Shown piece by piece: positions 4,644 through 22,782 of a stretch of DNA of 35,763 nt. The notes below the pieces were generated by a model. The model saw only the letters and a list, made by a program, of their open reading frames with translations. It was not told where the DNA came from and did no database searches. Position 1 is the first letter of the stretch. The number at the start of each line of letters is the position of its first letter. The position numbers and the translations under genes were made by a program. Source of the stretch: Pseudolabrys sp. (lineage in GTDB: Bacteria > Pseudomonadota > Alphaproteobacteria > Rhizobiales > Xanthobacteraceae); the NCBI GenBank assembly GCA_019689975.1, contig JADGGK010000030.1, forward strand, positions 1 to 35,763, given 5' to 3'.

Positions 4644-5048
4644 TTACTTCCTCGCCAGGATCTGCGCCACCTTCTCCAGGCTGCGGCCGCCGAAATAGGC
4701 GCCGAGCACGATCGTCGCCCATTGCGCGACGTCGCCGGACAAGGGCTCGGTGGTGCCGAGCCCCAGCACCTTGTCCCATACGACCACCTTCCACGCATAG
4801 GCGACGAAGGCGAAGGCGAAGAGCGGGCGCGGCAGCGCCGTCAGCAGGCGCCCCTGTTCGGCGATCAGCGCCTGCGTGGCGAGCGCGCGCTCGCGTGCTT
4901 CCACCGCGAGCTCGCGCGCGGCAAGGTCGGCGGCGATCTTTTCGCTCGCATTGTCGGCGGCAAGCCGCGCGCGATAAGCCTCGAGCGCGGCCTGTGCGAA
5001 AGGGCCGCCGAGCAGACGACCGAGCCAGGCAAGGATGCGCGCGAGCAT
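4644..5048 (-). CDS. GTA-type 3TM holin family protein
   Basis: A 134-residue protein with an N-terminal amphipathic segment, a charged helical part rich in Ala, Glu and Arg (about residues 21-65), then the pattern 'LPRPLFAFAFVAYAWKVVVWD' (about 72-92) and a last hydrophobic segment 'QWATIVLGAYFGGRSLEKV' (about 110-128). The 'LPRP' entry into the membrane and the terminal 'YFGGR' match the GTA holin 3TM family. The inferred role is a membrane pore that lets the muramidase next door reach the wall to release particles. Its ATG overlaps the stop of the upstream small membrane protein (TAATG), indicating translational coupling. It is the last gene of the minus-strand GTA array. Confidence 0.78.
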   Translation of the reverse strand: MLARILAWLGRLLGGPFAQAALEAYRARLAADNASEKIAADLAARELAVEARERALATQALIAEQGRLLTALPRPLFAFAFVAYAWKVVVWDKVLGLGTTEPLSGDVAQWATIVLGAYFGGRSLEKVAQILARK

Positions 5049-5287
5049 TACCCGCCCCGCTGCGGCTTGCCGGCCGTGCGCCGGCGCGCGAGCTCGGTGA
5101 TCAGCCCGATCGCGATCACGTAATAGGGGACGTATTGCGGCTGCAGCGCCGCCTGCAGCGCGCCGGTGAGATCGCGATCGGCGGCGGTGGCCTCGAGCGC
5201 CGCCAGCACGAAGCCGAACAGCGCCACCATGCGCGCCCATGCGATGGTGAGCGAATGCTTGAACCATGCCTTGATTTTCGTCCACAT
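5048..5287 (-). CDS. Small membrane protein of the lysis cassette
   Basis: The product has 79 residues and two likely membrane segments (about 13-34, 'LTIAWARMVALFGFVLAALEA', and about 51-66, 'YVPYYVIAIGLITELA'), with a basic C-terminus 'RRRTAGKPQRGG'. No named family is recognised. It sits between the muramidase and the 3TM holin and is coupled to the latter by a TAATG overlap. A second holin subunit or a holin regulator is a reasonable inference from location and topology only. GGAG lies about 10 nt before the ATG. GTA lysis regions in other Rhizobiales often carry a comparable short membrane ORF, but I cannot confirm homology. Confidence 0.65.
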   Translation of the reverse strand: MWTKIKAWFKHSLTIAWARMVALFGFVLAALEATAADRDLTGALQAALQPQYVPYYVIAIGLITELARRRTAGKPQRGG

Positions 5288-5301
5288 CGTCCCTTCTCCG
5301 T

Positions 5302-5835
5302 TCAGGCTTGTGCCGTTTGCCGGGCCATCGCGAGCGCCGCCGCCTTGACCTCGCCGACGCGGCGGCCCCAGCCTCGGCCGAAGACCGGCCAGGTCTTTAG
5401 CGAGCGCAGGAAACGCAGACGCTCGTCGCAGATCGCCTCGATCAGCGCGGCGGCATCGGCGCCGCGCGCCGCGATGACGACGGCGTCGGTGACCGCGCCG
5501 GCCTGCTCCGCCAGCCCGAGGGCGCGCCGCAGCGCCCTGCCGGCGCGGCCGATGCCGGAATTGACCCCATAGTCGAAGACGGCATAGTCGAGCCCGGCGG
5601 CGAGTTCCTCGCAGCGCAATGCGTCCCAGTAATGCGCGCGGTAGATCGCCGCGGCCTCCTCGCGCCGCATTTCCTTGACGTCGGACGGCGTGGCGTCGGG
5701 ATTCACGTAGCGCCGATAGTCGGCGATGGTGATGCCGAAATTGGTCGGGCCTCCGGGGTCGGCCGGATGATTGGTATAGCCGCCTTCGTGCACGAGCAGC
5801 AGGGCAAGGCAGGAGTCGAAGCCTGACGCGGCCAT
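5302..5835 (-). CDS. GH108 N-acetylmuramidase (endolysin)
   Basis: A 177-residue peptidoglycan hydrolase that cleaves the glycan backbone. The N-terminus has the glycoside hydrolase family 108 signature 'HEGGYTNHPADPGGPTNFGI', with the catalytic Glu17 in 'EGGY'. The C-terminal half (about 90-165) corresponds to the predicted peptidoglycan-binding 3 domain, including 'DYGVNSGIGRAGRALRRALGL' and 'ICDERLRFLRSLKTWPVFGRGWGRRV'. There is no signal peptide, so export would need the neighbouring holin. The start at 5835 is chosen because GGAG lies 7 nt before it and the domain begins at once; the frame extends further upstream without protein character. It lies 79 bp after the DUF2793 gene. Confidence 0.92.
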   Translation of the reverse strand: MAASGFDSCLALLLVHEGGYTNHPADPGGPTNFGITIADYRRYVNPDATPSDVKEMRREEAAAIYRAHYWDALRCEELAAGLDYAVFDYGVNSGIGRAGRALRRALGLAEQAGAVTDAVVIAARGADAAALIEAICDERLRFLRSLKTWPVFGRGWGRRVGEVKAAALAMARQTAQA

Positions 5836-5914
5836 GCGATCGCTCCGTTTATCGCTTATCGCTCTGTGCGAGGTGCGCCCGGCGCGGTGGCGACCGACGA
5901 GGGTGCCCGCGCGC

Positions 5915-6619
5915 TCACGCGCTCGGCGCGCTCGTCTCGATGAAATAGACGACGAGGCGCACCTTGCCGCCGGTGAAACTGCCGCCATTGGCGGTGATGC
6001 GGACCCTGGTATCGGCATAGAACGCGGTCGGGCCGATGACCCCGACATTGGTCGCGCCCGGCGCCGTGCCAAGGAGATCGCCGAATTTGCCCGGCTCGCC
6101 CGCAATGCCCACGGCATAGGAGGCGGCGCCGGTGATGGCGAGCGTCGTGCGCGCGGCAACGCCGAGCACGATCGCGCGATCGGGGATGAAGGCGGGGTCG
6201 GCGGTTTCGGCAAAAGCCCCGGCAAGCGACAGCTCCTCCTCCTTGGCGCGAAGCGTCACGCGCCCCCCATGCGCGGTGAGCGCGATGCCGTCGCGCCAGA
6301 CGCCGTCCTCGTAGGTGACGGTCAGCCGCTCCGCCTTGACCCAGGCCTTGAGACCCGAGACCGGCGCCAGGCGCAGCCAGCCGCCGCCGCTGAACAGCGC
6401 GATCTGCCCGTCCCATCCGCTCCAGGCGCCGCTCGCGCCGGCGGCGGGGATGTAGCAGGCGCCGTCGGCGGGCGCCTCCGGCGGCGCGGCGAGCGTGCGG
6501 CTCTCGACGCAGAGCTGAAGCAGCGCGTCGATGAGCGCGAGCGCCTCATTGTGGGTGACGTGCTTCTGCGCCTGCGCGGCTTCGATCGCCGGCAGGGCGA
6601 AACGCGGCGTGGCGGTCAT
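5915..6619 (-). CDS. DUF2793 domain protein (phage/GTA tail-associated)
   Basis: The product has 234 residues. The first ~95 residues show the DUF2793 pattern: 'RFALPAIEAAQAQKHVTHNEALALIDALLQL' (split here as 6-18 and 19-36), then 'PPEAPADGACYI' and 'GAWSGWDGQIALFSGGGWLRLAP'. The remainder (about 110-234) is a beta-rich region with Gly-rich turns ending 'SFTGGKVRLVVYFIETSAPSA', compatible with a tail-fibre or adhesin end domain. DUF2793 proteins are regularly encoded next to the GTA host-specificity gene. An accessory fibre or carbohydrate-binding role is inference. The gene starts 112 bp after the megatron gene. A longer frame up to 6922 would overlap that gene and is rejected. Confidence 0.88.
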   Translation of the reverse strand: MTATPRFALPAIEAAQAQKHVTHNEALALIDALLQLCVESRTLAAPPEAPADGACYIPAAGASGAWSGWDGQIALFSGGGWLRLAPVSGLKAWVKAERLTVTYEDGVWRDGIALTAHGGRVTLRAKEEELSLAGAFAETADPAFIPDRAIVLGVAARTTLAITGAASYAVGIAGEPGKFGDLLGTAPGATNVGVIGPTAFYADTRVRITANGGSFTGGKVRLVVYFIETSAPSA

Positions 6620-6731: not shown

Positions 6732-9700
6732 TCAAAGGCGGCACGTCGTCTCCGTCGCGAAGCCGCGGCCGACGGTGGCCGAAACCTGCGCCACGCGCAC
6801 GGCAAGGTGCGTCTGCGGCTGGCCGAAATCGGCGAGTTCGTCGCCCGCGGCGTAGAGCGCCCACGGCGTCGCAACCAGGAGCGTTCGCACCACGGCGCCC
6901 GCGGCGAGAATGTCGAGCGCATATTGCTCGCTCGCTTCGCCGAGCGGCACCTCGCCCACCCAACCGTCGCCGTCGACGCGCGTGCGGCGGATCCAGCGGA
7001 ACATCACGCCGTCCGTGCCGCGCGAGGCCGTCACATGGACCGGCGCGAGCGGCTTGAGCGCGGTCGCCCGGGGCGTGGCTGCGAGCGAGACCGCGCTCGC
7101 ATCGCCAATGTCGCGACTGGCGGCAACGACGCGCAGCTGCAGCGGACGTTCCAGGGCCGATAGTCCGCTCGCGATCGGTACCACATGTTCGTCGAGCAGC
7201 ACGAAAGGCGCGCCGGCAGGCAGCGGCGTACCCATGGCCCACTCGCTGCCGCCCTGGCCGCGCAGCAGGCGCGCAAGGCGGTAGATGCGATCGCCCACGA
7301 GCTCGGCCTGCGCGAACTGAATCACCTCCCAGGCGCCGTCGGGCCGCTGCAGCGCCGCGGCGTTGGCGCCGGCGAACAGCGCCGCCTCGCTCGTCGACGA
7401 CAGCGCGCCGCCGTAAAGCTGCACGCGCAGGGAAACATTGTGCCAACGCGCGCTCGGACCCGGCGCGAGCGCGTCGAGCGTGACCCCCATCCTTGCCGGT
7501 GCGTGCACGAGCGCCGCGCGCGTGAAGCTCATGCCGTCGGCGGTCGCGAACACCGCGACCGGCCCCGGCCACGGGTCGGCGAAGACCGCGATCCGCGCGA
7601 GCACCGGCGGCTCGGTCGCGTCGAGCGAAGGCAGGTCGAGCACGAGCGCATGCAACGGCCCGAGCGGCAGCGGCGGCGGCGGCACGCGCAGGCGCGGCGG
7701 CGCGAGCGGCAGTCCGAACACGTCCGGGTCGACCGAGCGCCCCTTGAGCGCGCGGCATTCGGTGTCGACGATCTCCTGCACCTCGACGAGACGCCGGCGA
7801 CCGTTGACCGTAAGCCCGATCACGTCGCCGGGCGTGAGCGCGAGGCGGCTCATCGGCAGCACGATGTCCACGCTCTCGCGTCCGGCCCACAGATCCTGCA
7901 GCCAGATCTCCGCGCGACGCCGCGCCGCCGCGTCGCTCGCGACCATGGCGAGTTCGGCCCGGGCGCTGTGGGCGGAGCCGCCGACGAGACGCCGCGAGGC
8001 GGCGGCAGCGCGCTGGTAATCGGCGCCGATGTCGGTATAACCGATGACCACCTCGCGCGGCAGGTCGCACTCCTGCGCGCGGACGATCTGCGCCGGCGCG
8101 CCATGGCCGGAGAGCGCGAGCGCCTCTTCATCGATCTCCATCACCGGCGCGCCGCCGCGCGGCCTGAAGCGCAACACGCCGTCCTGCTCCGCGGCGTCGA
8201 AGGCGAAGGCGAGCGCGAGGGGATCGAGCATGGCGCGCGCGCTCATCGGCCGGTCGACCACATAGCCGTCCGGTCCTTCGCCCAGCGCGCTCGTGTCCGC
8301 GCCGGCGATGCCGCTGTCGGCGAGGACTGCCGCGACGAGCCCGTCGAGCGGCGCGCCGCCGAGCCGGCCGGTCAACCAATGGCCGGTCTGCCAGTTGGCG
8401 CCGTCGCTCCAGACGTCCTCCGCGGCGGGAAAGCTCGGATAGGGTCGCGCGTCCCACGTCCACAGGTGGATGCCGTCGGGCGCGATCATGCGGCCGCCAT
8501 AGAGGCTCGACAACGGATTGAGGACGGCGGGGCCGAAAGCGGGATCGAAGGCGCCCAATACGGCCTCGAGGAAACGGCGCTGGATCAGGTCATCGCGCGT
8601 GCCGCGGGAAAAATGAGGCAGGCCTGACTCCGACGATTTCGGATCGGGAAACACGCTCGGCTGGTTGGCTCCCTTGTCGACCGCGGGGCAGCCGAGCTCG
8701 GTGAGCCAGATCGGCTTCGACTGCGGCACCCAGGCGGTGGGCGCGGCGAGCTCGACGCCGGCAACGCGCTCGTAATGAGGCTGCGACCAGAAATTCCACA
8801 GGTCCTTCTGCCGGAACAGCCACGGCTTGCCGAGCCCGTCCGTGATCGGCGTGCGCTGCTGCGCGGCGCGCGCGGCCGCATCGGCATAGAACCAGTCATA
8901 GGCCTCGCCGCGCCGAAGATTGCCGGCGAGATAATCATGGCTGTAGATGCTCGCGGACAGCGCGCGGTCGAGTGCATCCGCCTCCTCGCGCCAGTCGGCG
9001 AGCGGCGCGTAATAGTCGATGCCGACGACATCGATCGCGGGCGAGGCCCACAGCCGGTCGAGCGGGAAACGTATCTCGTTCGCATCGATCACATGCGCGC
9101 CGTATTCGGTCCAATCGGCGCCGTAGGTCACCACGCAATCGTCGCCGAGCAGCTGCTTGGCCTCGGCGGCGAGCGCGCAGAGCGCATCGACCGCAGGATA
9201 GACGCCGGGCGCGGCACGCACGCGCGTGAGCGCCTTAAGCTCCGAGCCGATGAGAAAGGCGTCGACGCCGCCCGCGCCGGCAGCGAGCGTGGCGTAGTGC
9301 AGGATCATGCGGCGATAGTTCCACGCATCGGGGCCGCCGGAGAAAAATGCATCGACCTGGGCGGCGGCCGCGGCGGTTCCGTCGGGCGACCCCGGTCGTC
9401 CCGGCGCCGGATCGCAGGTGATGCGACCGCGCCACGGATAGGCCGGCTGCGCCGGCGCTCCCGTCCACGGATCGGCGCACGCATTGTCCGCCGGAATATC
9501 CATCATCAGGAACGGATAAAGCGTGACCTTGAGCCCGCGCGCCTTGAGCTCCGCGATGAGGTGCCGCACGGCATCGTCGGAGGGGGTGCCGCCGAAGGCA
9601 GGTCGGCCCTCCACCTGCGAGACAAGTCGCGCGCTTGCGCGATCGAGGCCGGCCACCGACCAGACGGCGCCCGCCGTCGCCTTGATCGCACTGTCCACCG

Positions 9701-10574
9701 ACGGCATCACGCGGCATTGGCCGCAGCGCAGATCGGTGCCGAACCAGGCCACGACGATGGCCACGCGCGCAAGATTGGGCGCCAGCGCCTGCAGCTCGTC
9801 GAGCGCGGCGACGACGTCGGACGGCGCGTGGCCCACGTGCCGGTTCTCCGGCGCCGAACGGCCCGGTCCCATCTGCCGCACCACGGTCGCGGGTTCGTAG
9901 CCGAACTCGGTCGCGCCCGGGATCAGCGTGACCGCGCGGATCATGCGTTCGAGCTTGCCCACCGGCCGCACCACCTCGAACGAGAGTTGCGGGATTCGGT
10001 TGCCGAAGGCGGCGAGCGGCAGGCGCTCGAACACGACATAGGCGAGTCCGCGATAGGCGGGCGCGTCACCCTCCTTGGCGATGATCAGCGGATCGGGCGT
10101 CTGCGCCTCGTCGCCGCGGTAGACGCGCAGGTTGACTCCCTCGAGGTCGAGCGGCTTGCCGTCCGCCCACACGCGCAGCACCGCGCCGATCGGTCCCTCG
10201 CACAGGCCGACGGCGAGATTGGCAAAATAGGAATAGGTCGTGGTGGTCGTGGTGACGCGGCCGCCCATTCCCTTTCCGCCGCTCGACTGTGACTGCGTGC
10301 TCGCCACTTCCTCGAGGCGGGTCGCCCAGATCACCTGTCCCGCAACGCGCGCGCGGCCGTAGACACGCGGAATCGGCGCGCCGGCGGTCGAGCTCATCAC
10401 GCCGAGGTCGGCAAGGCGCGGGCCCGCGAGCGCGACGGTGCGCGAGCCGAACAGCGCCTGGTCGATGGCATGACCGGCGAGCGCGCCGACGAGGCGACCG
10501 ACGAGCGCGCCGGTCGGGCCGAACAATGACGAGCCCGCCGCGCTGCCGGCGACGGAGAGGACAAGAGCGGCCAT
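6732..10574 (-). CDS. GTA host-specificity / megatron tail protein (gp15-like)
   Basis: At 1280 residues this is the largest GTA protein. It forms the distal tail tip and fibre that contacts the recipient cell. The N-terminus has a Gly/Ala-rich hydrophobic segment (1-40). Then come 'GAPIPRVYGRARVAGQVIWATRLEE' (about 65-90) and a Ser/Thr-rich loop near 95-110. A TIM-barrel-like (GTA_TIM) domain follows at about 420-720, containing 'WTEYG', 'WASPAIDVVGIDYYAPLADWR' and 'KPIWLTELGCPAVDKGANQPSVF'. Next are a phage-tail-3 type domain (about 780-940, 'VIGYTDIGADYQ', 'SRLALTPGDVIGLTV') and an Rcc01698-like C-terminal region with 'LLRGQGGSEWAMG'. Length and domain order match RcGTA gp15. GGAT lies 9 nt before the ATG. 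Unlike the compact canonical cluster, its promoter-proximal neighbour gp14 is separated from it by an opposite-strand gene. Confidence 0.95.
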   Translation of the reverse strand: MAALVLSVAGSAAGSSLFGPTGALVGRLVGALAGHAIDQALFGSRTVALAGPRLADLGVMSSTAGAPIPRVYGRARVAGQVIWATRLEEVASTQSQSSGGKGMGGRVTTTTTTYSYFANLAVGLCEGPIGAVLRVWADGKPLDLEGVNLRVYRGDEAQTPDPLIIAKEGDAPAYRGLAYVVFERLPLAAFGNRIPQLSFEVVRPVGKLERMIRAVTLIPGATEFGYEPATVVRQMGPGRSAPENRHVGHAPSDVVAALDELQALAPNLARVAIVVAWFGTDLRCGQCRVMPSVDSAIKATAGAVWSVAGLDRASARLVSQVEGRPAFGGTPSDDAVRHLIAELKARGLKVTLYPFLMMDIPADNACADPWTGAPAQPAYPWRGRITCDPAPGRPGSPDGTAAAAAQVDAFFSGGPDAWNYRRMILHYATLAAGAGGVDAFLIGSELKALTRVRAAPGVYPAVDALCALAAEAKQLLGDDCVVTYGADWTEYGAHVIDANEIRFPLDRLWASPAIDVVGIDYYAPLADWREEADALDRALSASIYSHDYLAGNLRRGEAYDWFYADAAARAAQQRTPITDGLGKPWLFRQKDLWNFWSQPHYERVAGVELAAPTAWVPQSKPIWLTELGCPAVDKGANQPSVFPDPKSSESGLPHFSRGTRDDLIQRRFLEAVLGAFDPAFGPAVLNPLSSLYGGRMIAPDGIHLWTWDARPYPSFPAAEDVWSDGANWQTGHWLTGRLGGAPLDGLVAAVLADSGIAGADTSALGEGPDGYVVDRPMSARAMLDPLALAFAFDAAEQDGVLRFRPRGGAPVMEIDEEALALSGHGAPAQIVRAQECDLPREVVIGYTDIGADYQRAAAASRRLVGGSAHSARAELAMVASDAAARRRAEIWLQDLWAGRESVDIVLPMSRLALTPGDVIGLTVNGRRRLVEVQEIVDTECRALKGRSVDPDVFGLPLAPPRLRVPPPPLPLGPLHALVLDLPSLDATEPPVLARIAVFADPWPGPVAVFATADGMSFTRAALVHAPARMGVTLDALAPGPSARWHNVSLRVQLYGGALSSTSEAALFAGANAAALQRPDGAWEVIQFAQAELVGDRIYRLARLLRGQGGSEWAMGTPLPAGAPFVLLDEHVVPIASGLSALERPLQLRVVAASRDIGDASAVSLAATPRATALKPLAPVHVTASRGTDGVMFRWIRRTRVDGDGWVGEVPLGEASEQYALDILAAGAVVRTLLVATPWALYAAGDELADFGQPQTHLAVRVAQVSATVGRGFATETTCRL

Positions 10575-11113: not shown

Positions 11114-11833
11114 ATGAAAAACGGTTTCTTCGTTGCTGTTGCGGCGGTCGTTGCAACACTCGGTCTGGTGAGCCAATCGCCTGCCGCCCCTGTTGCCATC
11201 CGAGACAGCTGGAGCGGATGTTATCTGGGCGGAAATGTCGGCTACGGCTGGTCACCGACCAAATGGAGCGCTCCCGACAGCGGCATCGAGGTCGCCTCGC
11301 ACAGCGTCGACGGCGTCGTCGGCGGCGGCCAGATAGGCTGCGATTATCAGTTCGCGCCGCAATGGGTCGTCGGCATCCGCGGGATGTGGGACGCGGCCGG
11401 GATGAAAGGCAGCAGCGCCAATGCGCTCGACCCCGCGTTGATCGACTCGAGCAAGGTGACGTGGATCGCGACCCTCACCGGACGCGTCGGCTATGTCATC
11501 GAGCCGATGACTCTGCTCTATATTCAGGCGGGCGCGGCCTGGGCGCATGCCAAATATACGGAGTGCTGCACGACGGTTCCGCCGCCCCCGCCGCCGATAC
11601 CGGACGGGTTCGCGAACCCGACCCGGAGCGGGTGGACGATCGGCGGCGGACTCGAGCACAAGTTCACGCCAAATCTTTCCGCTTTCATCGAATATGATTA
11701 CATCGGCCTGGGCGGCGACAGCGTCACCTTCACGCCCACGGGCCCGACCACGACGCCCTTCGTCTACCATATCGAGCAGAACATCCACCTCGTTCTGATC
11801 GGGCTCAATTACCGCTTCGGCCCGTTTCCTTGA
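11114..11833 (+). CDS. Outer-membrane beta-barrel protein (Omp25/Omp31-like)
   Basis: This 239-residue protein has a signal peptide ('FFVAVAAVVATLGLVSQSPAA', residues 4-24) and an eight-stranded-barrel pattern of alternating residues. Examples are 'WSGCYLGGNVGYGW', 'VVGGGQIGCDYQFAPQWVVGI', 'WIATLTGRVGYVI', 'LLYIQAGAAWAHAKY', 'WTIGGGLEHKF' and 'LSAFIEYDYIGLG', ending 'LVLIGLNYRFGPFP'. This matches the porin-family / Omp25-Omp31 barrels of Rhizobiales. An unusual loop around residues 154-168 has adjacent cysteines followed by six prolines. The ATG at 11114 has a GGGGGCG ribosome site; a TTG 12 nt earlier is less likely. The gene stands against the strand of the GTA array, between gp14 and gp15. 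Confidence 0.85.
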   Translation: MKNGFFVAVAAVVATLGLVSQSPAAPVAIRDSWSGCYLGGNVGYGWSPTKWSAPDSGIEVASHSVDGVVGGGQIGCDYQFAPQWVVGIRGMWDAAGMKGSSANALDPALIDSSKVTWIATLTGRVGYVIEPMTLLYIQAGAAWAHAKYTECCTTVPPPPPPIPDGFANPTRSGWTIGGGLEHKFTPNLSAFIEYDYIGLGGDSVTFTPTGPTTTPFVYHIEQNIHLVLIGLNYRFGPFP

Positions 11834-11905: not shown

Positions 11906-12340
11906 TTACGTCACGCCCGGAAAGCGGAACGCATAGGCAAGCCGGCGGCGCCACCACGGCGCGAGCGCGACTTCCGCGACCGCCGCGCCGTCATGGGCGT
12001 GCACCATCGTGCTTTCGCTGGCGATGATGGCGGCGTGCTTGGCGGGCAGATGCGTGCGCCAGCGGAACAGCACGACGTCGCCGGGCGCGATGGCCCGGCA
12101 GGGGATTGGGAGGAGATGCCGCGCGGCGGCCTCGGCCAGCGTCTCCTTGCCCGCTGCCTCCGCCCAGTCGGGCGCGTAGGGCGGCACGCGCTCGGGTTCT
12201 TCACCCACGACGTCGCGCCAGACGCCGCGCACGAGCCCGAGGCAATCGCAGCCGACGCCCTTGAGGGACGCCTGGTGCCGATAGGGCGTGCCGATCCACG
12301 AACGGGCGGCGGCAACGATGCGTTCTCGGGTTACGGACAT
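11906..12340 (-). CDS. GTA NlpC/P60 peptidase (gp14-like)
   Basis: A 144-residue NlpC/P60 cysteine peptidase, thought to cut recipient peptidoglycan peptides as the tail penetrates. The family pattern is clear: 'ARSWIGTPYRHQASLKGVGCD' (about 12-32), catalytic Cys33 in 'CDCLGLVRG', an 'APGDVVLFRW' strand (about 85-94) and the catalytic His102 in 'LPAKHAAII'. Closing segments are 'MVHAHDGAAVAEV' and 'RRRLAYAFRFPG'. Length fits the GTA gp14 family. The start at 12340 is set by homology; an ATG two codons upstream (12346) and one at 12388 are also in frame, and no start has a strong ribosome site. It lies 94 bp after the DUF2163 gene. Confidence 0.9.
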   Translation of the reverse strand: MSVTRERIVAAARSWIGTPYRHQASLKGVGCDCLGLVRGVWRDVVGEEPERVPPYAPDWAEAAGKETLAEAAARHLLPIPCRAIAPGDVVLFRWRTHLPAKHAAIIASESTMVHAHDGAAVAEVALAPWWRRRLAYAFRFPGVT

Positions 12341-15031: not shown

Positions 15032-15340
15032 CTAATCGGCGAAGGTCGCCGTGATCAGCGCGGCGGCAATCCGCACATAGGCCTGCGCGCCGCCATCGGC
15101 GGCCATGGCGGCGACCTCCTCATCGCTCACGGTCTCGCCGGCCCCGCGCAGGCCGGCGCCGATGATGCGCACGAGGTCGCGCGCCTTGAGGCGACCCGAC
15201 GCGAAGCGCTCGCTCAGCGCCACGAGGTCGTCGGCGCCGAAGGCGTCTTCCAGTTCCGCCAGCGCGCCGAGCGTGAGCACGAGGCGACGCTTGACGCCGC
15301 CGAGTTCGGCTTCGATCTCGCCGCGATGCCTGTTGGGCAT
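15032..15340 (-). CDS. GTA gp10-like tail assembly chaperone
   Basis: The product has 102 residues and the GTA_gp10 pattern: 'HRGEIEAELGGVKRRLVLTLG' (4-24), 'ALAELEDAFGADDLVALSERF' (25-45) and a helical C-terminal half 'LVRIIGAGLRGAGETVSDEEV'. The family covers tail tube or tape measure chaperones of HK97-like phages and GTAs. It follows the tail tube gene after 80 bp and precedes the short chaperone, the usual order. The start is the first ATG and gives the normal family length. Confidence 0.88.
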   Translation of the reverse strand: MPNRHRGEIEAELGGVKRRLVLTLGALAELEDAFGADDLVALSERFASGRLKARDLVRIIGAGLRGAGETVSDEEVAAMAADGGAQAYVRIAAALITATFAD

Positions 15341-15420: not shown

Positions 15421-15846
15421 TCAGGATGGCGGCGGCGGGAGCGCCGCAAAGGTCAGCTCGCCCGCCGACTCGAGCGAGAATTCATATGTCACCTCGCCAT
15501 TGTGCTCGCCGGCGAATTCGAGATTGGTGATCTGGAACGGTCCCTCGAGCGCGCCGAAATCAGGAATGACTATCTGAAAATTGGCAATTGCGCCGGCGAA
15601 GAAATTCTGCCGCATGAGCGCATCCGACGCCGCGTCCTTGAACAGGCCGCGGCCCGCCACCGATGCGCGCTTGATACCGGCGCCGTCGAGCAACTCGCGC
15701 CAGCGATTGGCGCTCTCGGCGTGGGTGATGTCGACGCTCTCCGCGTTGAAGGCGAGCCTGCGCGCGCGCAGACCGGCGACGGTGACGAACGCGCCGTCAT
15801 CATCGGCGATCTTGACGAGCAGGTCCTTACCTCGCTGGGCGCTCAT
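15421..15846 (-). CDS. GTA major tail (tube) protein, gp9-like
   Basis: The 141-residue product forms the stacked rings of the tail tube. The family start 'MSAQRGKDLLVKIADDDGAF' (1-20) is followed by 'VTVAGLRARRLAFNAESVDIT' (21-41) and 'SANRWRELLDGAGIKRASVAG' (45-65). It ends with 'FQITNLEFAGEHNGEVTYEFS' and 'LESAGELTFAALPPP'. This is the TP901-1-like / GTA major tail pattern. The start at 15846 has AGGGAGA 9 nt upstream and is preferred to an ATG at 15873. A proline run closes the protein. Confidence 0.92.
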   Translation of the reverse strand: MSAQRGKDLLVKIADDDGAFVTVAGLRARRLAFNAESVDITHAESANRWRELLDGAGIKRASVAGRGLFKDAASDALMRQNFFAGAIANFQIVIPDFGALEGPFQITNLEFAGEHNGEVTYEFSLESAGELTFAALPPPPS

Positions 15847-16045: not shown

Positions 16046-16456
16046 CTAGCGGGGCTCGGTGACGGCGCGGAAGCGCACCAGCGCGTGATAGGTGCGGCCG
16101 TCCGCCTCGCGTCTGACGTCGGCAACCGCGAAACGCAGATTGACGAGATGGTGATCGGCAAGCGCCAGCGGCGCTTCGTCGAGCGCCTGCAGCAAAGCGC
16201 CGGCGATGAGATGCGCCTGCCTGTGTCCGCCCTCGCGCGACCAGGCATGCAGCGTGAGCTGGTGCTCCGTCCCCGCCTCGCCGCCGGTCGAATAGTCGGA
16301 CATACGCGCCTCGCCGAGCGTCACATAGGGAAACGCCACGCCGCGCGGCGGCTCGTCGTAGATCTTCGGTCCGCCGAGCAGGGCAAGGAGCGCGGTGTCG
16401 GCGGCGAGCGCGGCGCGCACGGCAGCGCGCAGCGCGGCGGAAGCGGCGATGGCCAT
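16046..16456 (-). CDS. DUF3168 GTA tail terminator (gp8-like)
   Basis: A 136-residue protein of the DUF3168 family, the ring that ends the tail tube and docks it to the head connector. Visible pattern: 'LRAAVRAALAADTALLALLGG' (9-29), 'KIYDEPPRGVAFPYVTLGEAR' (31-51), 'TEHQLTLHAWSREGGHRQAH' (63-82), 'LNLRFAVADVRREADGR' near 107-121 and a final strand 'HALVRFRAVTEP'. The start at 16456 has AAGGGA 6 nt before it. The neighbouring genes on both sides are in the standard GTA order. Confidence 0.92.
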   Translation of the reverse strand: MAIAASAALRAAVRAALAADTALLALLGGPKIYDEPPRGVAFPYVTLGEARMSDYSTGGEAGTEHQLTLHAWSREGGHRQAHLIAGALLQALDEAPLALADHHLVNLRFAVADVRREADGRTYHALVRFRAVTEPR

Positions 16457-16500: not shown

Positions 16501-16821
16501 TCAATCGTCCCATTCTTCGGCGTCGATCACGAGAAAGCGGCCGTCCTCGCTCGGACGCGTCGCGAGCACGCGGTAGACGCGCGCGCCCTCGCGCAGGCGG
16601 TGGCGCGTGCTCACGTCGTCGCGCATACGGATGATGACCGTCATGCGCCGCACCTGCCCGAGCGAATCGGCGGCGGCCGCAGAGCGCGCCGCGAGCGGCA
16701 CGATCCGCGCCCAGAGCCTTGCCGCCGCCTGATAGGCGCGCGTGACGCCGCCGGCGCCGTCGTCGCTCTCGAGCGGCGCTTCCAGCGTGAGCCGGCGGTT
16801 CAGCTCGCCGGGCTGAATCAC
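16501..16821 (-). CDS. GTA head-tail adaptor (gp7-like)
   Basis: 106 residues. The phage head-tail joining family signature is present: 'GELNRRLTLEAPLESDDGAGG' (5-25), 'LWARIVPL' (36-43), a central 'VRRMTVIIRMRDDVSTRHRL' (58-77) and 'RVYRVLATRPSEDGRFLVIDA' (82-102). The start is GTG, and its first bases overlap the TGA of the connector gene (GTGA), so translation is probably coupled. The role is to plug or stop the connector between portal and tail. Confidence 0.92.
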   Translation of the reverse strand: MIQPGELNRRLTLEAPLESDDGAGGVTRAYQAAARLWARIVPLAARSAAAADSLGQVRRMTVIIRMRDDVSTRHRLREGARVYRVLATRPSEDGRFLVIDAEEWDD

Positions 16822-17387
16822 AGCGACACCAGGCGAAACGGCGCGAGCAACGCGGCGACCGTCTGCGGCAACAGCGCCGTCTCGTGGCCGATGGCGACAA
16901 GACCGCGGTTTTCATACCAATGCGCGACCAACAGGCGCACCGCCTGGCGCAGCGGCTCGGGAATCGCGGCGCCGGTCTCGCCATAGCCGCATACGACATC
17001 GAGCGCGATGCCGGCCGCGATGCGCCCCGGCCGCGGCAATGCCGAAGGCGCGAAGGCGAGCACGCTTGCGGCGTTGTCGACGACGAAGGCCTGCGTGTCG
17101 AGATCGCGCGCCGCGCCATTCTCGTCATAGACGCGCGCGGCGGCGAGCGCCTGCAGCGGCGCGGGTCGGATCTCGATGCGGCCCTCCTCCGGCCAGCCAT
17201 CGAGCGACAGTCGCCAGCGCTGGGTGATGAGCGCGGCGCGCGTCGCGTTCTCGACATGCGAGCGCGCGCCGCTGACGAGCGCCGTGATCAAATCGTCGTC
17301 ATCGTCATGCTCGACGCGAAGAAAATTTTTCGCCTCGGCAAGCGTGATGGGTTCGACGACGGGTGGCGCGAGCAGGGTCGCAGACAT
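16818..17387 (-). CDS. Head-tail connector (gp6-like, phiE125 gp8 family)
   Basis: Coding 189 residues, this adaptor binds beneath the portal. The N-terminal pattern 'PITLAEAKNFLRVEHDDDDDL' (14-34), with 'ITALVSGARSHVENATRAALI' after it, is typical of the phiE125 gp8 / HK97 gp6 family. It ends 'PEPLRQAVRLLVAHWYENRG' and 'ALLPQTVAALLAPFRLVSL'. The start at 17387 is chosen because AGAGGAG lies 9 nt upstream and the family begins with this methionine; the frame runs back to 17489 without support. It faces the divergent trypsin-like gene across a 110-bp gap that must contain a minus-strand promoter or receive read-through from the capsid gene. Confidence 0.93.
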   Translation of the reverse strand: MSATLLAPPVVEPITLAEAKNFLRVEHDDDDDLITALVSGARSHVENATRAALITQRWRLSLDGWPEEGRIEIRPAPLQALAAARVYDENGAARDLDTQAFVVDNAASVLAFAPSALPRPGRIAAGIALDVVCGYGETGAAIPEPLRQAVRLLVAHWYENRGLVAIGHETALLPQTVAALLAPFRLVSL

Positions 17388-17497: not shown

Positions 17498-18244
17498 ATG
17501 CGTCGCACGCTCCTCGCCTTGGCCGCCCTCCTCCCGATGCCGTGCGCCCATGCCATCACCGGCGATGCGCCGCCGGCGCCGCCCTGGGCGGCGCGGCCGA
17601 TCGTGATGGTGGTCGATGCGCGGGGCGATCTCTGCACCGGAACGGCGCTCGCGCGCGATCTCGTGCTCACCGCCGCGCATTGCGTGACGCGGCCGCTGCG
17701 CTACGCGGTCAAGATCTTTCAGACCGGCGACAGCCTTGCCGTCGCCGCCGTCGTGCATCATCCGCGTTTCGATCCCGCGAGCTTTGCGGCGGGCCGTGCG
17801 ACGGCCGATGTGGCGCTGCTCAAGCTTGCCGCGCCGCTGCCCGACGTCGTCGTGCCCGCCGCGCTTGCCGCGCCGCGGCGTGTCCAAGCGGGCGAGACGC
17901 TCGTGATCGCCGGCTTTGGCACAACGCGCGCCGGCACCGCGCTCGGCCTCGGTATTCCGCGCGCCGTGCCGCTCGTCGTCACCGGCCGACCGGGATCGCT
18001 GCAGATCCGCCTCTACGACGCGGCCACCCGCAACCAGCGCCCCGGCCGCGGCGCCTGCACCGGCGATTCCGGCGGTCCCGCCTTCGACGGCGACGGCCCG
18101 CTGGTCATCGGCGTGGTGAGCTGGACCACCGCCGCGCGCGACGAAGAAGGCTGCGGCGGCCTCACCGGCCTCACGCCGCTGCTGCTCTATCGCGCCTGGC
18201 TCGCCGCGGCGGCGCGCCGGTTCGGCGCCGACATCGCGCCCTGA
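17498..18244 (+). CDS. Secreted trypsin-like serine protease (S1)
   Basis: A 248-residue S1 family protease. A signal peptide (1-19, ending 'CAHA') is followed by a chymotrypsin fold with all three catalytic residues: His61 in 'LTAAHC', Asp104 in 'ADVALLKL' and Ser191 in 'CTGDSGGP'. Cys46/Cys62 and Cys187/Cys219 fit the usual disulphides. The specificity pocket position six residues before Ser191 is not an obvious Asp, so trypsin-like specificity is unproven. It would act in the periplasm or outside the cell. The gene lies on the opposite strand within the GTA head genes, between the capsid and connector genes, with its stop 47 bp from the capsid stop. TTGACA at 17462-17467 may be its -35. 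The ATG at 17498 is selected by the signal peptide. Confidence 0.93.
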   Translation: MRRTLLALAALLPMPCAHAITGDAPPAPPWAARPIVMVVDARGDLCTGTALARDLVLTAAHCVTRPLRYAVKIFQTGDSLAVAAVVHHPRFDPASFAAGRATADVALLKLAAPLPDVVVPAALAAPRRVQAGETLVIAGFGTTRAGTALGLGIPRAVPLVVTGRPGSLQIRLYDAATRNQRPGRGACTGDSGGPAFDGDGPLVIGVVSWTTAARDEEGCGGLTGLTPLLLYRAWLAAAARRFGADIAP

Positions 18245-18291
18245 AGCCGATGCGCCGCGCTCGTCGCCTCGCGGCGGGCGGGCGCTTGCGC

Positions 18292-19548
18292 TCACGATGC
18301 CGCGAACCTCAGGAGCTTGATGGCGTCGAAATCCTGCACGCCGCCGCCCACGCGCTTGGTGGTGTAGAACAGCACATAGGGCTTGGCGCTGTAGGGATCG
18401 CGCAGCACGGAGACGCCGGTGCGGTCGACGATCAGGTAGCCGCGCTTGAAGTCGCCGAAGGCGATCGACAGCGAATTGGCGGCGATGTCCGGCATATCCT
18501 CGGCCTCGACCACGGGAAAGGTCATCAGCGACGGCCGCCCTCCCGCCTGCACCGGCGGCTGCCACAGGTAATTGCCGGTCGAATCCTTGAACTTGCGAAC
18601 GACCGATTGCGTCTTGCGGTTCATCACGAAGACGCCGTTCTGCCGGTAGCCCGCCTTCACCGCATAGACCAGGTCGATCAGCAGGTCGGAGGGATTGCTG
18701 GTCGGAAAGGCGCCGGCCGTCCCGCTCGGCAGATAGCCGATATTGCCCCAGCTCCACGCGCCATTGTCGACCACCGGATAGGCGAGGAAACCCCGCGGCT
18801 TGTTGACGCCGTCGCCGGAGACGAAAGCCGCACCCTCCTGCGCGGCGAAGGCCTGCTCGACCTCCTGCGCGAGCCAGGCATCGATGTTGACCGCCGCGTC
18901 CTCGAGCAGCGTCGAGGTCGCCGCCGGTTGGGCGTAGAGCTCCATCGCCGGGAACGACAATTCGTCGAGCACCGGCGCGGCGGTCTGGACGCGCGGGTCG
19001 CTTTCGCCGACCCAGCCGACCGCCGGACCCGCCACCACGACCGGTCTCTTGTAGACGTTGCCGCTGATCGTGCGCACGGTGGCGATGGCGCGGACGGGCG
19101 AGAGAGTGGCGAGCCGCTCGCCGATCATCGTCTCCACCTCGGGCGGCGCAAGATAGCCGCCGTCCGCGGCCGAACCGACCGACATGGCCTTGAGCTCGAG
19201 CGTGCGCAGCGCGGTCGCGTCGCCGCTGCGCAGATAGGCGTCGAAGGCCGCCTTGTGCTCGCGCGCCGCGACCGCCGGCGGCTCGCCGCGATCGGCGCCG
19301 ATCGCCGGACGCGCCGCCTTCAGGACGATCTCGTCGAGCTTGCGTGCCTGCGCCTCGATCGCGGCGTTGATGCGCGCGAGCTTCTCCTCCAGCACGACAT
19401 CGCCGCCGCGCCTGGCGATCTCGGCGAGGCGCTCGTCGTTCGCCTCCTTGAAGGCCTCGAAGGCGCGCATCATCTCGGCATGCGTCACCACGGCTTCCGG
19501 CGGGATTCCGGCTTTGGTCTCGATATCGGTTGCGGTGCTGATGTCCAT
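18292..19548 (-). CDS. HK97-type major capsid protein (GTA gp5-like)
   Basis: A 418-residue capsid protein. The N-terminal ~100 residues are a charged coiled-coil delta domain ('RAFEAFKEANDERLAEIARRG', 'EEKLARINAAIEAQARKLDEI') that guides assembly and is removed by the prohead protease. The HK97 fold begins near 'KAMSVGSAADGGYLAPPEVE' (about 123-142) and includes 'FPAMELYAQPAATSTLLEDA', 'AAFVSGDGVNKPRGFLAYP' and the late 'VFVMNRKTQSVVRKFKDSTG'. It ends 'YVLFYTTKRVGGGVQDFDAIK' just before the last residues. AAGGAG lies about 9 nt before the ATG at 19548, setting the start. Length agrees with the GTA/HK97 family, and the fold looks intact. Confidence 0.95.
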   Translation of the reverse strand: MDISTATDIETKAGIPPEAVVTHAEMMRAFEAFKEANDERLAEIARRGGDVVLEEKLARINAAIEAQARKLDEIVLKAARPAIGADRGEPPAVAAREHKAAFDAYLRSGDATALRTLELKAMSVGSAADGGYLAPPEVETMIGERLATLSPVRAIATVRTISGNVYKRPVVVAGPAVGWVGESDPRVQTAAPVLDELSFPAMELYAQPAATSTLLEDAAVNIDAWLAQEVEQAFAAQEGAAFVSGDGVNKPRGFLAYPVVDNGAWSWGNIGYLPSGTAGAFPTSNPSDLLIDLVYAVKAGYRQNGVFVMNRKTQSVVRKFKDSTGNYLWQPPVQAGGRPSLMTFPVVEAEDMPDIAANSLSIAFGDFKRGYLIVDRTGVSVLRDPYSAKPYVLFYTTKRVGGGVQDFDAIKLLRFAAS

Positions 19549-19648: not shown

Positions 19649-20284
19649 TCACGGCGCGGATGATCGCCACTCGCCGCGTTGCGGCGAAGACGGCCGCCCT
19701 TGGGCGCTTCCCGCAGCGATCTTTTCTTGCCCGCCCCACGCGCGGAGCGGCGACGGGCGCGCTTGGCGGCGCGCGCAATGTCCGTGTCCGTCCGCATGGG
19801 CGTTTGCCTGCTTGACCCGACGCACGCGGGCGCCGGAAAGCAGCGGGAAGGTGACGATGGAAATCTCCCAGAGGTCGACCGCGTAGAGCCGGCGCACGCG
19901 CGTTGCCGGATCGACGCGGGCCCTGGCGGCGCGAAAGCCGATCGACAGCCCGTCGATCGCGCCCGCTTCGATGAGCGCGATGAGCTCGCGCGCCCGCGCG
20001 ACCTCCGGGATGAGCCGGCCGCGCGCGAACAGGCCGCGATGGTCTTCCGCGAGTTCGAGCCAGATGCCCACCGGTTCGGATGGGTCGTGCTGGAACAGCA
20101 TCGGCACGCGCCGCGGCGGCCGCAGACGCAGCGTCTGCGCGAAAGCGCCGGGCATCACCATGTCGCGCGCCTCGTCGACGGCGCCAAACAGGCTGGCATA
20201 GCCTTCGACACTGCCGTCCGCCGCGATGCGCGGCCGCGGCACGAACGCCGACGCTGCAACGGGATCGGTGTCGGATTGAAGCAT
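19649..20284 (-). CDS. HK97-family prohead protease (GTA gp4-like) with unusual C-terminal tail
   Basis: The product has 211 residues. The U35-type protease core is clear: 'GYASLFGAVDEARDMVMPGAF' (28-48), catalytic His65 in 'VPMLFQHDP', 'GLFARGRLI' and Ser115 in 'AIDGLSIGFRA', followed by 'LYAVDLWEISIVTFPLLSGAR'. It would trim the capsid delta domain. After about residue 155 the protein continues 'VRRVKQANAHADGHGH', then a Ser/Pro/Gly/Arg-rich stretch with 'GGQEKIAAGSAQGRPSSP'. This tail is unlike the core and resembles translated interspersed repeat DNA, so the original stop may have been lost. The start at 20284 has AAGGAG 6 nt upstream. The catalytic assignments are by family resemblance. 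Confidence 0.9.
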   Translation of the reverse strand: MLQSDTDPVAASAFVPRPRIAADGSVEGYASLFGAVDEARDMVMPGAFAQTLRLRPPRRVPMLFQHDPSEPVGIWLELAEDHRGLFARGRLIPEVARARELIALIEAGAIDGLSIGFRAARARVDPATRVRRLYAVDLWEISIVTFPLLSGARVRRVKQANAHADGHGHCARRQARPSPLRAWGGQEKIAAGSAQGRPSSPQRGEWRSSAP

Positions 20285-20775: not shown

Positions 20776-20955
20776 CTACCGAAAAAGATCGTTGAAGCGC
20801 GCTAGCTCGCGCACGAAATCATCGAAGCGGCGGCGCGCCTCCCCGAGTTCGCGCAGCCCATAGCAGGCGAGCGCCGAGGCCGCGCTCGCCCACAGGAACA
20901 GCGCAAGGTGCGCCAAATCGCCGCGTGCAACGAAAACGTCGATCAGTTCGGTCAT
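20776..20955 (-). CDS. Small single-TM protein of the GTA portal region
   Basis: The 59-residue ORF reads 'MTELIDVFVARGDLAHLALF', then 'LWASAASALACYGLRELGEA' and 'RRRFDDFVRELARFNDLFR', ending in TAG. It has one membrane segment (about residues 15-33) and a charged amphipathic C-terminal helix. I recall very similar short proteins at this place, between portal and prohead protease, in Rhizobiales GTA clusters, where small ORFs (gp3.5-like) are usual. The role is unknown. It is missed by a 60-residue cut-off. Amino-acid composition is balanced, unlike chance frames in this GC-rich DNA. Confidence 0.75.
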   Translation of the reverse strand: MTELIDVFVARGDLAHLALFLWASAASALACYGLRELGEARRRFDDFVRELARFNDLFR

Positions 20956-21036: not shown

Positions 21037-21157
21037 GTCATTGCGAGCCCGTCATTGCGAGCCCCGGGGCGAAAACGGGGGCGAGGCAATCGGGAACGCC
21101 GGTGCCAGACCGACCCCGGATTGCCTCGTCGCCCGCGCGGGCGCCTTCTCGCGATGA
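21037..21157. repeat. Dispersed palindromic repeat copy inside the GTA cluster
   Basis: Left arm GTCATTGCGAGCCC occurs twice in direct succession (21037 and 21050). Then come GAGGCAATCGGGA in the middle, GGATTGCCTCGTCGCCC, and a right arm TTCTCGCGATGA. The arms and inner GCAATC / GGATTGCC are inverted with respect to each other, so a long hairpin is possible. It lies between the 59-residue ORF and the divergent 112-residue exported protein gene. Confidence 0.75.
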
Positions 21158-21238
21158 AGATGCCAATTCAATCCGTTCGGAATCCGCTTTATTTAAAGAG
21201 CGTCAAGCGGGGCGACGCCGCCAGCATCGGAGGCCGCG

Positions 21239-21577
21239 ATGCGCGCCCTTATGTCTGCCCTGCTGCTCCTTGCCGCGATCGCGAGCGCCGCACGCGCGGA
21301 AATTCGCATCGACGAATCGCGCTATGTCGACGGCAAGCTCGTCATCCGCGGCGAGACCGCGCCCCGCCGCACGGTCACGCTCGATGACCGATTTACGACC
21401 ACGAGCGACGCGGATGGCACTTTCGCATTCAGCGTCAACGAGAAGCCGTTCACCTGCATGAGCGAGATTCGCGCGGGCAACGACGTCTATTCGGCTGTGA
21501 TTGCGGGCTGCCTCGACGCCGGCGATGTCGAGCGCCCGCCGCCGGCGGAGCAGTCCGCGACCGGAGCCGCGCGTTAG
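21239..21577 (+). CDS. Small exported protein of unknown function
   Basis: The product has 112 residues with a signal peptide (1-20, 'LMSALLLLAAIASAARA'). The mature part has a beta pattern 'EIRIDESRYVDGKLVIRGETA', then 'RRTVTLDDRFTTTSDADGTFA' and 'SVNEKPFTCMSEIRAGNDVYS', plus two cysteines that may pair (in 'FTCMSE' and 'AGCLDA'). The centre recalls carboxypeptidase-regulatory or Ig-like folds ('APRRTVTLDDRF...DADGTFAFSV'). Similar exported proteins occur in Rhizobiales, but I know no function. GGAGG lies 5 nt before the ATG. It converges on the portal gene, 14 bp stop to stop, and is the third plus-strand gene inside the GTA array. Confidence 0.78.
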   Translation: MRALMSALLLLAAIASAARAEIRIDESRYVDGKLVIRGETAPRRTVTLDDRFTTTSDADGTFAFSVNEKPFTCMSEIRAGNDVYSAVIAGCLDAGDVERPPPAEQSATGAAR

Positions 21578-21591
21578 CGCGGAGCGCCGCC

Positions 21592-22782
21592 TCAGGCGAA
21601 CGCGTCGCCGCCCTCCACCGCGCCGTAGCCGACCGCCGCTCGCTTCTCGTTGACGGTCAGGAACGGCGCCCGGGTGACGCGCTCCCACAGCGCGGCGCGA
21701 TCGGCGGCAAGCGCGGCGATGCGGTCGGCATCGGGGGCGAGCGTGAGCCCCGCGCCGAAGCTCGGGCTGAGCCATTGTGCGAGCGCGGCGCCGATGCGCT
21801 GGCCGAGCGGCAAGACCGTCTGCCGCACGAACACGCGGCTCGCCTCCTGATAGTTCGAATAGGTATTGTCGCCCGGGATCGCGAGCAGCATGGGCGGCAC
21901 GCCGAAGGCGAGCGCGATCTCGCGCGCGGCCGCGTGCTTGGCCTCCATGAAATCCATGTCCTTGGGCGACAACGACATCGCCTTCCAATCGAGCCCTCCC
22001 TCGAGGATCAAGGGACGGCCCGCATTGGCGGCGCCCTGGTATTGGCGATCGAGCTCGCGCTTGAGACGCTCGAACTGCGGCTCGGACAGCATGCCGCCGT
22101 CCGGGCCGGCATAGACCAGCGCGCCCGAGGGGCAGGCGGCATTGTCGAGCAGCGCCTTGTTCCACCGCGCAGCCGCATTGTGCGTATCGACCGCGGCGCT
22201 CGCTGCTTCAAGCGGGCTCATGCCGTAATGGTCGTCGAGCGGATTGAACAGGGTCAGATGCAGGATCGGCGGCTGGCGCGCATCCTGATCGAAGCGCACC
22301 CGCGCGCCGTTGACCGTGTAGTCATAGGCCTGCGGCCAACCGTTCGGACCGGCCACGACCTTCATGCGATCGGGACGCAACGCGTAGAGCTCGCGCACGC
22401 GCGCCTCTGCCTGCTCCTCGCCCGGAAGACTCACGGCCTCGACATAGGCATTGCCGGACAACAGGAGATAGGCGGCGACGCTTTCCAGGAACGAGGCGCC
22501 GTCCTGGCGCGGGTTGGGCCGCGCGAGCAAATCGATGAGCGGATGGCGCGTCAATTCCCGCTCGCCCTCGTAAAGCACGAAGGCAAGCGCACCGACGCTT
22601 TCGGCCACCAGACGCACCGCGCGATAGACGATCGCATTCCTGGCGAAACCCTCGCGCGTGAGCGCGGCATAGTCCCGCGGCGTCCAGCGTGCGCGCGCGC
22701 CGGCATCGAAGGCGATGAGGCGAGCGATGCGCGACGCCTTGGCCTCGGGCGCGAGCAGCAAATTCTTGAGACGGTCAAGCAT
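21592..22782 (-). CDS. HK97-family portal protein (GTA gp3-like)
   Basis: This 396-residue protein forms the dodecameric ring through which DNA enters the head. The family pattern is evident: 'FARNAIVYRAVRLVAESVGAL' (about 46-66), 'LARPNPRQDGASFLESVAAYL', 'LLSGNAYVEAV', 'DRMKVVAGPNGWPQAYDYTVN', 'LFNPLDDHYGMSPLEAASAAV' and 'EARHAAAREIALAFGVPPML'-like text with 'GDNTYSNYQEASRVFVRQTVL'. It is the first minus-strand structural gene of the window. No ribosome site stands before the ATG, and an open in-frame stretch continues upstream without a start codon. A terminase gene, normally next, is absent. Confidence 0.94.
   Translation of the reverse strand: MLDRLKNLLLAPEAKASRIARLIAFDAGARARWTPRDYAALTREGFARNAIVYRAVRLVAESVGALAFVLYEGERELTRHPLIDLLARPNPRQDGASFLESVAAYLLLSGNAYVEAVSLPGEEQAEARVRELYALRPDRMKVVAGPNGWPQAYDYTVNGARVRFDQDARQPPILHLTLFNPLDDHYGMSPLEAASAAVDTHNAAARWNKALLDNAACPSGALVYAGPDGGMLSEPQFERLKRELDRQYQGAANAGRPLILEGGLDWKAMSLSPKDMDFMEAKHAAAREIALAFGVPPMLLAIPGDNTYSNYQEASRVFVRQTVLPLGQRIGAALAQWLSPSFGAGLTLAPDADRIAALAADRAALWERVTRAPFLTVNEKRAAVGYGAVEGGDAFA

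Follow-up and report, generated by a model that had tools for sequence, protein, structure and literature searches.

Gene transfer agents (GTAs) of the Alphaproteobacteria are usually recognised by a contiguous gene cluster that starts with the terminase. RcGTA-type agents are further marked by particles that carry random host DNA of about 4 kb. The Bartonella GTA comes from the same bacterial order as the genome studied here. It has been called unrelated to RcGTA, the GTA of Rhodobacter capsulatus (PMC9836097). RcGTA is described as having its small terminase gene g1 immediately upstream of the large terminase gene g2 in the core cluster, and as a multi-locus genome whose tail fibre, head spike and maturation loci are ectopic (PMC6854486). 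For the GafYZ system of the Caulobacter crescentus agent, CcGTA, GafZ is described as having one chromosomal target, as binding a near-palindrome between the -10 and -35 boxes of the GTA promoter (dyad GCGCCCG-CTGGCGC, with a degenerate -35 that needs GafY) and as letting RNA polymerase read past a terminator that follows the terminase gene (PMC11150451). Here we analyse a stretch of 35,763 bp, the entire contig C146 (JADGGK010000030.1) of the Pseudolabrys sp. assembly GCA_019689975.1, called the window below. Its positions 4644–22782 hold an RcGTA-type cluster that lacks a terminase before the portal gene, and the sole large terminase subunit (TerL) that we found in the genome is encoded beside a small subunit (TerS) on another contig, behind a promoter-like element that also precedes the window portal. 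The window is probably the structural half of a split RcGTA-type GTA whose separately placed units share one promoter type.

The minus-strand genes of the cluster, from the portal to the lysis region, are all open and follow the RcGTA order (Table 1), and the best PDB matches of the capsid, megatron and portal proteins are the solved RcGTA proteins. An earlier note on this DNA had described the portal-to-megatron series and the lysis genes as intact and in GTA order, with no terminase upstream of the portal. Open frames, Pfam and PDB matches bear out the first point, with the holin-like match falling below the cut-off, and a scan of the proteins between the portal and the contig end found no terminase. 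In contrast to RcGTA, the genes for the DUF2793 protein, the endolysin and the holin-like protein directly follow the megatron gene; we take the tail-fibre and lysis genes of RcGTA to correspond to them, the DUF2793 protein presumably being a tail fibre. Six GTA genes of the window have ratios of non-synonymous to synonymous substitution (dN/dS, Nei–Gojobori, as throughout) of 0.17–0.37, so that constraint is visible but its end is not datable. With no terS–terL pair at its head, the cluster is a variant that is non-canonical in layout.

The phage-like gene order and the lysis genes could suggest a tailed prophage. However, the ten flanking proteins scanned are of host types (HxlR, FMN reductase, pirin, MFS, CxxCxxCC, PBP and DUF2336) and include no integrase, repressor, replication or other phage-type protein, similar host flanks surround the clusters of relatives, and the best PDB matches are to RcGTA. 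We consider a prophage extremely unlikely.

The source genome (G000) is a draft of 3.57 Mb in 201 contigs and is 98.9% complete. It was compared with a family set of 119 genomes, in which protein searches found TerL in 80 and a portal in 79 (both at E 0.001) and a capsid in 73 (1e-20). In the Pseudolabrys sp. genome the sole TerL lies on the 6,006-bp contig C196, directly behind TerS and followed by non-GTA genes, and was recovered both by the genome-wide TerL protein search and by the Pfam model Terminase_6C (PF17289). The TerL model PF03354 has no match in the genome, and neither a second TerL or TerL piece (E 0.001) nor a second portal (E 0.001) or capsid (1e-20) was found there. The terminase that the earlier note expected at another locus, and with it the split genome, is thus supported.

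We label portal-linked terminase copies A, copies inside a GTA cluster B1 and unlinked copies B2. Four genomes of the same genus (G034, G070, G091 and G110) encode two TerLs each, 59–64% and 70–74% identical to the C196 TerL. The 59–64% copy adjoins the portal in G034, G070 and G091 and lies on a 3.3-kb contig without a portal in G110, and the 70–74% copy is not portal-adjacent in any of the four. In an 83-row TerL tree, all 15 copies without a portal downstream fall into one clade (100/99), which is nested among portal-linked A copies of the same family; a 100-row tree is concordant (0.997), and in it the clade splits into B1 and B2. The window genome carries B2 only. Among 43 genomes of the genus, 34 matched TerL at 1e-40 and 17 carry a B2-type TerL; no full-length A-type TerL was found in G000, G156, G146 or G136, and G139, G144 and G148 have, besides B2, only N-terminal pieces of TerL. 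The trees and gene neighbourhoods refine the earlier proposal: the C196 terminase is a duplicated lineage, the original being missing beside the portal.

TerL-B2 retains the Walker, nuclease and GTA-type cysteine positions that were checked, and B2 has a dN/dS of 0.30–0.38. The cysteine, described as a mark of GTA TerLs (PMC7947584), is present in 99 of the 100 aligned TerLs, including that of C196 (position 310); the exception is the divergent L168. Cys310 would correspond to position 292 of RcGTA, whose TerL lies outside the alignment. A helix–turn–helix in TerS has weak Pfam support only, with 6 of 12 members matching each of two such models at E up to 0.05.

The B2 pair changes genomic position across genomes. 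In Pseudolabrys it is flanked by genes recognised by eye, TRAP-transporter and outer-membrane protein genes on one side and a fumarylacetoacetate-hydrolase-like gene on the other, and in four genomes of other genera (G012, G056, G038 and G092; loci L102, L105, L107 and L110) among mur/fts cell-wall genes, likewise by eye. G012 has a second B2 copy at the Pseudolabrys-like site, and the C196 pair occupies yet another site. G034 has its equivalent pair and its GTA cluster on one contig, about 1.75 Mb apart.

The two loci of the Pseudolabrys sp. genome are linked by a shared element, which was first spotted by eye in an otherwise inconclusive upstream blastn comparison and then tested. The upstream regions contain CTTGACAGCGGACGTCTGTCCTGATAGGAAATCGGCAC ahead of the window portal and CTTGACAGCGGACCGCTGTTAGGCCTATAGT ahead of terS-B2. 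The pattern TTGACAGCGNNNNNCTG occurs twice in the 3.57-Mb genome, at precisely these two places, with no hit in the reversed control; in five other genomes it occurs one to four times each (controls 0–3). The consensus of 94 sites that precede terL, terS or portal genes, TCCTTGACAGCGTGACGCTGCTCCGGTAGGGTTTCGGCAT, describes a 38-bp element with TTGACA and TAGGGT as -35 and -10 boxes and, between them, an AGCG-N3-CGCT dyad of which both arms are strongly conserved. The sequence suggests that the element is a GTA promoter. It resembles the CcGTA promoter in the position of the dyad, but the Hyphomicrobiales sites have TTGACA at -35 and a different dyad.

At a matrix threshold of 12, the loci, 2.40 Mb in all, gave 134 sites, of which 118 lie ahead of a terminase or portal; the A, B1, B2 and portal loci in this count partly supplied the matrix and are not independent of it. 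The element lies upstream of 102/113 A, 7/9 B2 and 0/10 in-cluster B1 terminases, and before 9 of 25 portals without terL within 3.2 kb. In genomes with B1 only it precedes the portal in six of six (L152, L153, L154, L156, L161 and L177). Nine loci duplicating the genome of another row, the fragment L195, short or accessory loci and rows with insufficient flank (8 A, 2 B2 and 4 portal) were left out, and a recount with one row per gene again gave 102/113, 7/9 and 0/10, with no identical sequences. An independent test on loci fetched later found the element at 11/12 B2 (scores 34–59; G156 scored 3.3) and 10/13 A-like terminases, two of the three A-like misses being partial genes. Across all B2 loci with sufficient flank the total is 18 of 21.

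In two Afipia loci (L014:100 and L017:1355) the GTA cluster has upstream of it a pair of genes that also stands behind a GTA-type promoter and that we take to resemble a RES-Xre toxin–antitoxin system.

The site of the terminase loss can be located by comparison with relatives. G034 and G091 have, in this order, HxlR, further genes, terS, terL, a small gene and the portal, and HxlR homologues 73–79% identical to that of the window lie beyond terS in L093 and L100. In the window only 386 bp separate the HxlR gene from the portal, and the A block is absent in mid-contig. The earlier note had allowed for a terminase just beyond a mis-assembled junction. This looks unlikely because the portal lies about 150 bp behind a GTA-type promoter, beside the HxlR gene that flanks the terminase block of relatives.

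In two relatives the GTA cluster has apparently undergone internal deletion. In L183 (G066) it has shrunk so that an N-terminal piece of TerL continues into a holin-like tail, and in L195 (G110) a portal piece directly adjoins two-component genes.

Composition bears on whether C196 belongs to the same genome. Its 4-mer distance is 0.130, within the range of 6-kb pieces of the window (0.124–0.155), and for ten loci of eight other genomes such 6-kb pieces are at 0.172 or above; within its own genome the comparison covered, of 199 other contigs, C201 and C42 only. Together with GC content this favours, but does not prove, that C196 belongs to the Pseudolabrys sp. genome. The YiiX-like gene of C196 has its best matches in a copy on C102 of the same genome (69%) and in G003 (64%). 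An assembly artefact, in which the terminase block truly lies beside the portal or C196 is foreign, could draw on the 201-contig state of the draft, on the deviating composition of C201 and C42, which carry extra GTA-like tail genes and may be foreign, and on the closeness of the C196 TerL and YiiX-like gene to G003 among other genomes. However, the HxlR/promoter/portal junction is internal to a 35.8-kb contig, C196 carries non-GTA genes around a B2 rather than an A terminase and matches in composition, and six other genomes have portals without an upstream terminase. An artefact is therefore very unlikely.

C201 (L190) and C42 (L191) were considered as a second GTA cluster and set aside as prophage or foreign. 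NlpC and megatron genes are present on both, and a hub gene and part of a DUF2460 gene on C201; they are 48–64% identical to the window at the protein level and 86% to each other at the DNA level, their composition is off, and neither contig has a GTA-type promoter site.

Several observations weigh against a working split GTA. The C196 TerL groups in the tree with that of G003, outside the members of the genus, and with this grouping and the 6-kb length of the draft contig a foreign origin of C196 is still conceivable. G003 itself keeps B2 with an intact frame and the element, and searches there found no close GTA portal, capsid (1e-20), megatron or DUF6456 gene; a distant phage-like portal, capsid and connector (24–31% identical) lie on another contig, and B2 might serve this gene set. 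G110 also keeps B2, with a portal match that ends at residue 304 and no capsid or megatron match. Retention of B2 therefore needs no working GTA. The site is missing for 11/113 A terminases, one of which is L168, with its divergent TerL that lacks the cysteine, and for 3/21 B2 terminases. The scores of the window (20.0) and C196 (14.1) are low against 33–58 at most sites, and the window dyad is imperfect (AGCG/GTCT), its right arm being off at two of four positions. Finally, GafY (DnaA domain IV) was not detected: the only PF08299 match in the genome is a 519-aa frame taken as DnaA itself.

A rival reading is a defective GTA, in which loss of A ended packaging and the remaining genes and B2 are decaying or serve something else. 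It would be in keeping with G003 and G110, where B2 persists although the GTA gene set is incomplete, the outright cluster deletions in G110 and G066, the low promoter scores and the failure to find GafY. We nevertheless regard it as rather unlikely. The structural genes are open and conserved, TerL-B2 keeps its Walker, nuclease and cysteine positions, and both halves share a promoter type for which the two patterns used find three sites genome-wide. GafY, moreover, is equally undetected in G034, G070 and G091, which have A.

For the split GTA we propose the following course of events. An ancestor in the family would have had a second terS–terL pair (lineage B) beside the portal-linked A, and the window lineage would have lost the A block between HxlR and the portal, so that only the unlinked B2 on C196 was left. 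The genes from portal to holin would be transcribed from the one promoter at 22931–22968, through three inverted genes, and terS–terL B2 from its own promoter copy. A GafZ-type anti-terminator (DUF6456) would load at the dyad of the portal promoter and carry the polymerase through the inverted genes, and the same factor would switch on terS–terL B2. Given the shared promoter copies, both halves would be produced together upon induction. The window portal would receive the B2 motor, and we infer that this motor packages DNA into the window-encoded capsids.

The genome encodes one protein with the DUF6456 domain of GafZ and the GafA C-terminus (C56:12953–13354, E 9e-48), between genes recognised by eye as mucR-like and sufE-like. 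The gafA gene of Hyphomicrobiales has been described between mucR and sufE (PMC9638019). By analogy with Caulobacter, the dyad may recruit this protein as an anti-terminator; like CcGTA, the system has a GafZ homologue, but unlike there GafY is undetected. A second match to DnaA domain IV is absent from the five Pseudolabrys genomes searched (L209–L212 and L214), and GafZ may therefore act without GafY there. In G012 (L213) a DnaA-like gafY gene precedes gafZ.

The earlier note had offered either several promoters or read-through past the inverted genes. The best site in the window is that of the portal (score 20.0), the next best scores -4.8 and ten block-shuffled windows reach at most 1.0. 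No such site precedes the capsid, connector or megatron genes or the genes after the inverted inserts, other promoter types not being excluded. With a single site, before the portal, read-through is the likelier reading. Multi-promoter control holds in part, in that the structural cluster, terS–terL and an orphan terS-like gene (see below) each have one site of the shared type, but it is not supported within the cluster. Several internal promoters, one for each block after an inverted gene, would find a parallel in L108, L111 and L151, where inserts separate the portal from the terminase and a second site precedes the portal. For the window we consider them unlikely: the -4.8 site is within the block-shuffled range, leaving 22931–22968 as the only site above background, although promoters of another type could still be present.

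The three plus-strand genes inside the array that the earlier note reported are real open reading frames (ORFs), and inverted genes within GTA clusters are not peculiar to the Pseudolabrys sp. genome. Antisense homologues of the insert at the portal/protease junction adjoin the same genes in L009 and L111. At the capsid/connector junction, 37 of 72 relatives with both genes have a trypsin-like gene in antisense, none in sense, and 35 have none. Rhodopseudomonas, Afipia, Ancylobacter, Phreatobacter, Bosea, Chelatococcus and Enterovirga are among the 37 bearing loci. None of the named Rhizobiaceae isolates in the set of 72 has the gene, but the metagenome-assembled genome Rhizobium sp. Q54 (L003) does. 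The dN/dS of the trypsin-like gene is 0.38–0.55. In antisense it is fixed at the capsid/connector junction in several families, and a role in the GTA and silencing by read-through are both conceivable.

The g14/g15 junction is seldom broken: among 21 junctions only the window and L005 have antisense inserts, with smaller antisense ORFs in L006 and L193 under looser gene calling. Across relatives, inserts are common at the head-gene junctions and rare from connector to megatron, and because of this the window's barrel gene at 11114–11833 is unusually placed. The idea that inserts are mostly antisense was rejected, since the called ORFs number 112 in sense and 104 in antisense. Inserts of at least 100 aa number 53 in sense and 89 in antisense, or 53 and 45 without the trypsin-like genes.

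Table 1 Features of the GTA cluster and its surroundings in the window
Feature	Position	Strand	Evidence
HxlR-type regulator	23169..23576	-	PF01638 1e-28; adjoins portal
GTA-type promoter element	22931..22968	-	CTTGACA (-35), dyad AGCG-N3-GTCT, TAGGAA (-10), GGCAC; ends 149 bp before portal start
GTA portal protein (g3, Rcc01684-like)	21592..22782	-	PF04860 1e-91; PDB RcGTA portal 2e-123
Inverted insert 1, small secreted-looking protein, portal/protease junction	21239..21577	+	Coding score 31.7; no Pfam match
Small conserved protein, g3.5 position (cluster c12)	20776..20955	-	Family in 11/19 loci compared, including the window; no Pfam match
Prohead serine protease (g4)	19649..20284	-	PF04586 9e-36
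Major capsid protein (g5, Rcc01687-like)	18292..19548	-	PF05065 1e-88; PDB RcGTA capsid 4e-95
Inverted insert 2, trypsin-like serine protease, capsid/connector junction	17498..18244	+	PF00089 3e-25 on ORF from 17363
Head-tail connector (g6)	16818..17387	-	PF05135 5e-13
Head completion protein (g7)	16501..16821	-	PF05521 1e-21
Tail completion protein (g8)	16046..16456	-	PF11367 2e-41
Tail tube protein (g9)	15421..15846	-	PF06199 9e-45
GTA-gp10	15032..15340	-	PF11836 8e-30
Tail assembly chaperone	14748..14939	-	PF09550 2e-22
Tape-measure position ORF (g11)	14162..14761	-	Position and homologues in relatives; no Pfam match
Distal tail protein DUF2460 (g12)	13457..14098	-	PF09343 4e-84
Baseplate hub (g13)	12435..13325	-	PF09931 3e-57, PF09356 3e-33
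NlpC/P60 tail peptidase (g14)	11906..12370	-	PF00877 5e-7
Inverted insert 3, outer-membrane beta-barrel protein, g14/g15 junction	11114..11833	+	PF13505 2e-13
Megatron (g15, GTA_TIM)	6732..10574	-	PF13547 2e-134; PDB RcGTA chain 6tba_8A 3e-281
DUF2793 protein	5915..6619	-	PF10983 9e-30
GH108 endolysin	5302..5835	-	PF05838 9e-29
Small lysis-block protein (cluster c23)	5048..5287	-	Kept in L181, L182 and L193; no Pfam match
Holin-like protein	4644..5048	-	PF11351 GTA_holin_3TM E 0.033, under cut-off; same place in relatives

The window thus shares head–tail gene order with RcGTA, whereas the terS–terL pair of its genome lies on another contig and belongs to a paralogous lineage. Other Hyphomicrobiales clusters (Pseudolabrys, Rhodopseudomonas, Afipia, Rhodoplanes and Tardiphaga) have the same genes, with the antisense trypsin-like gene in many and the element in most. 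Unlike the window, most of them retain A before the portal, and some Rhodoplanes- or Tardiphaga-type genomes have an in-cluster B1, with or without A, where the window genome has B2 only. Among titles and the openings of abstracts we found no report of a relocated or duplicated GTA terminase, or of the element, in Hyphomicrobiales, and one may exist in print. Through the shared element the structural cluster is tied to a terminase located elsewhere, and the GTA regulon can be traced by sequence throughout the order. It becomes testable whether the original motor can be replaced by a duplicated one, and read-through in place of new promoters would explain in simple terms how inverted host genes are tolerated in such clusters. 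If motors are indeed exchangeable, the choice of GTA cargo would be an evolvable trait.

The genome has a third site of the element, at C16:111970–112007 (L232), found with a longer pattern allowing two mismatches (reversed control 0). Behind it lies an orphan TerS-like gene with an engB-like neighbour; the 215-aa product carries DIPEDIDEFRENLARRIEAF near its C terminus, and its best TerS match is the TerS-B2 of the same genome (36%, 9e-21). G070 and G091 have an orphan TerS-like gene with the element at the same engB-like neighbour, and similar orphans stand behind the element in several other genomes. A bolder reading, which we hold to be quite doubtful, is that the family has a dispersed GTA regulon, in which terminase pairs and lone TerS-like DNA-binding proteins, dispersed around the chromosome, each lie behind the same promoter, the motors are exchangeable and the cargo depends on the pair that a genome has or expresses. 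The window species would then run a replacement motor together with the extra C16 TerS-like protein and would package DNA less randomly than RcGTA, in which TerS has no DNA-binding domain.

At 28526–28741 of the window, the gap between the MFS and CxxCxxCC genes is gene-free; the corresponding place in G034 (L206) is occupied by an orphan TerS-like gene with a GTA promoter ahead of it. By the TerL tree, the GTA cluster of L052, from a genome labelled Bacillus subtilis SK6B4, is Pseudochrobactrum-like, and this genome is probably mislabelled or contaminated.

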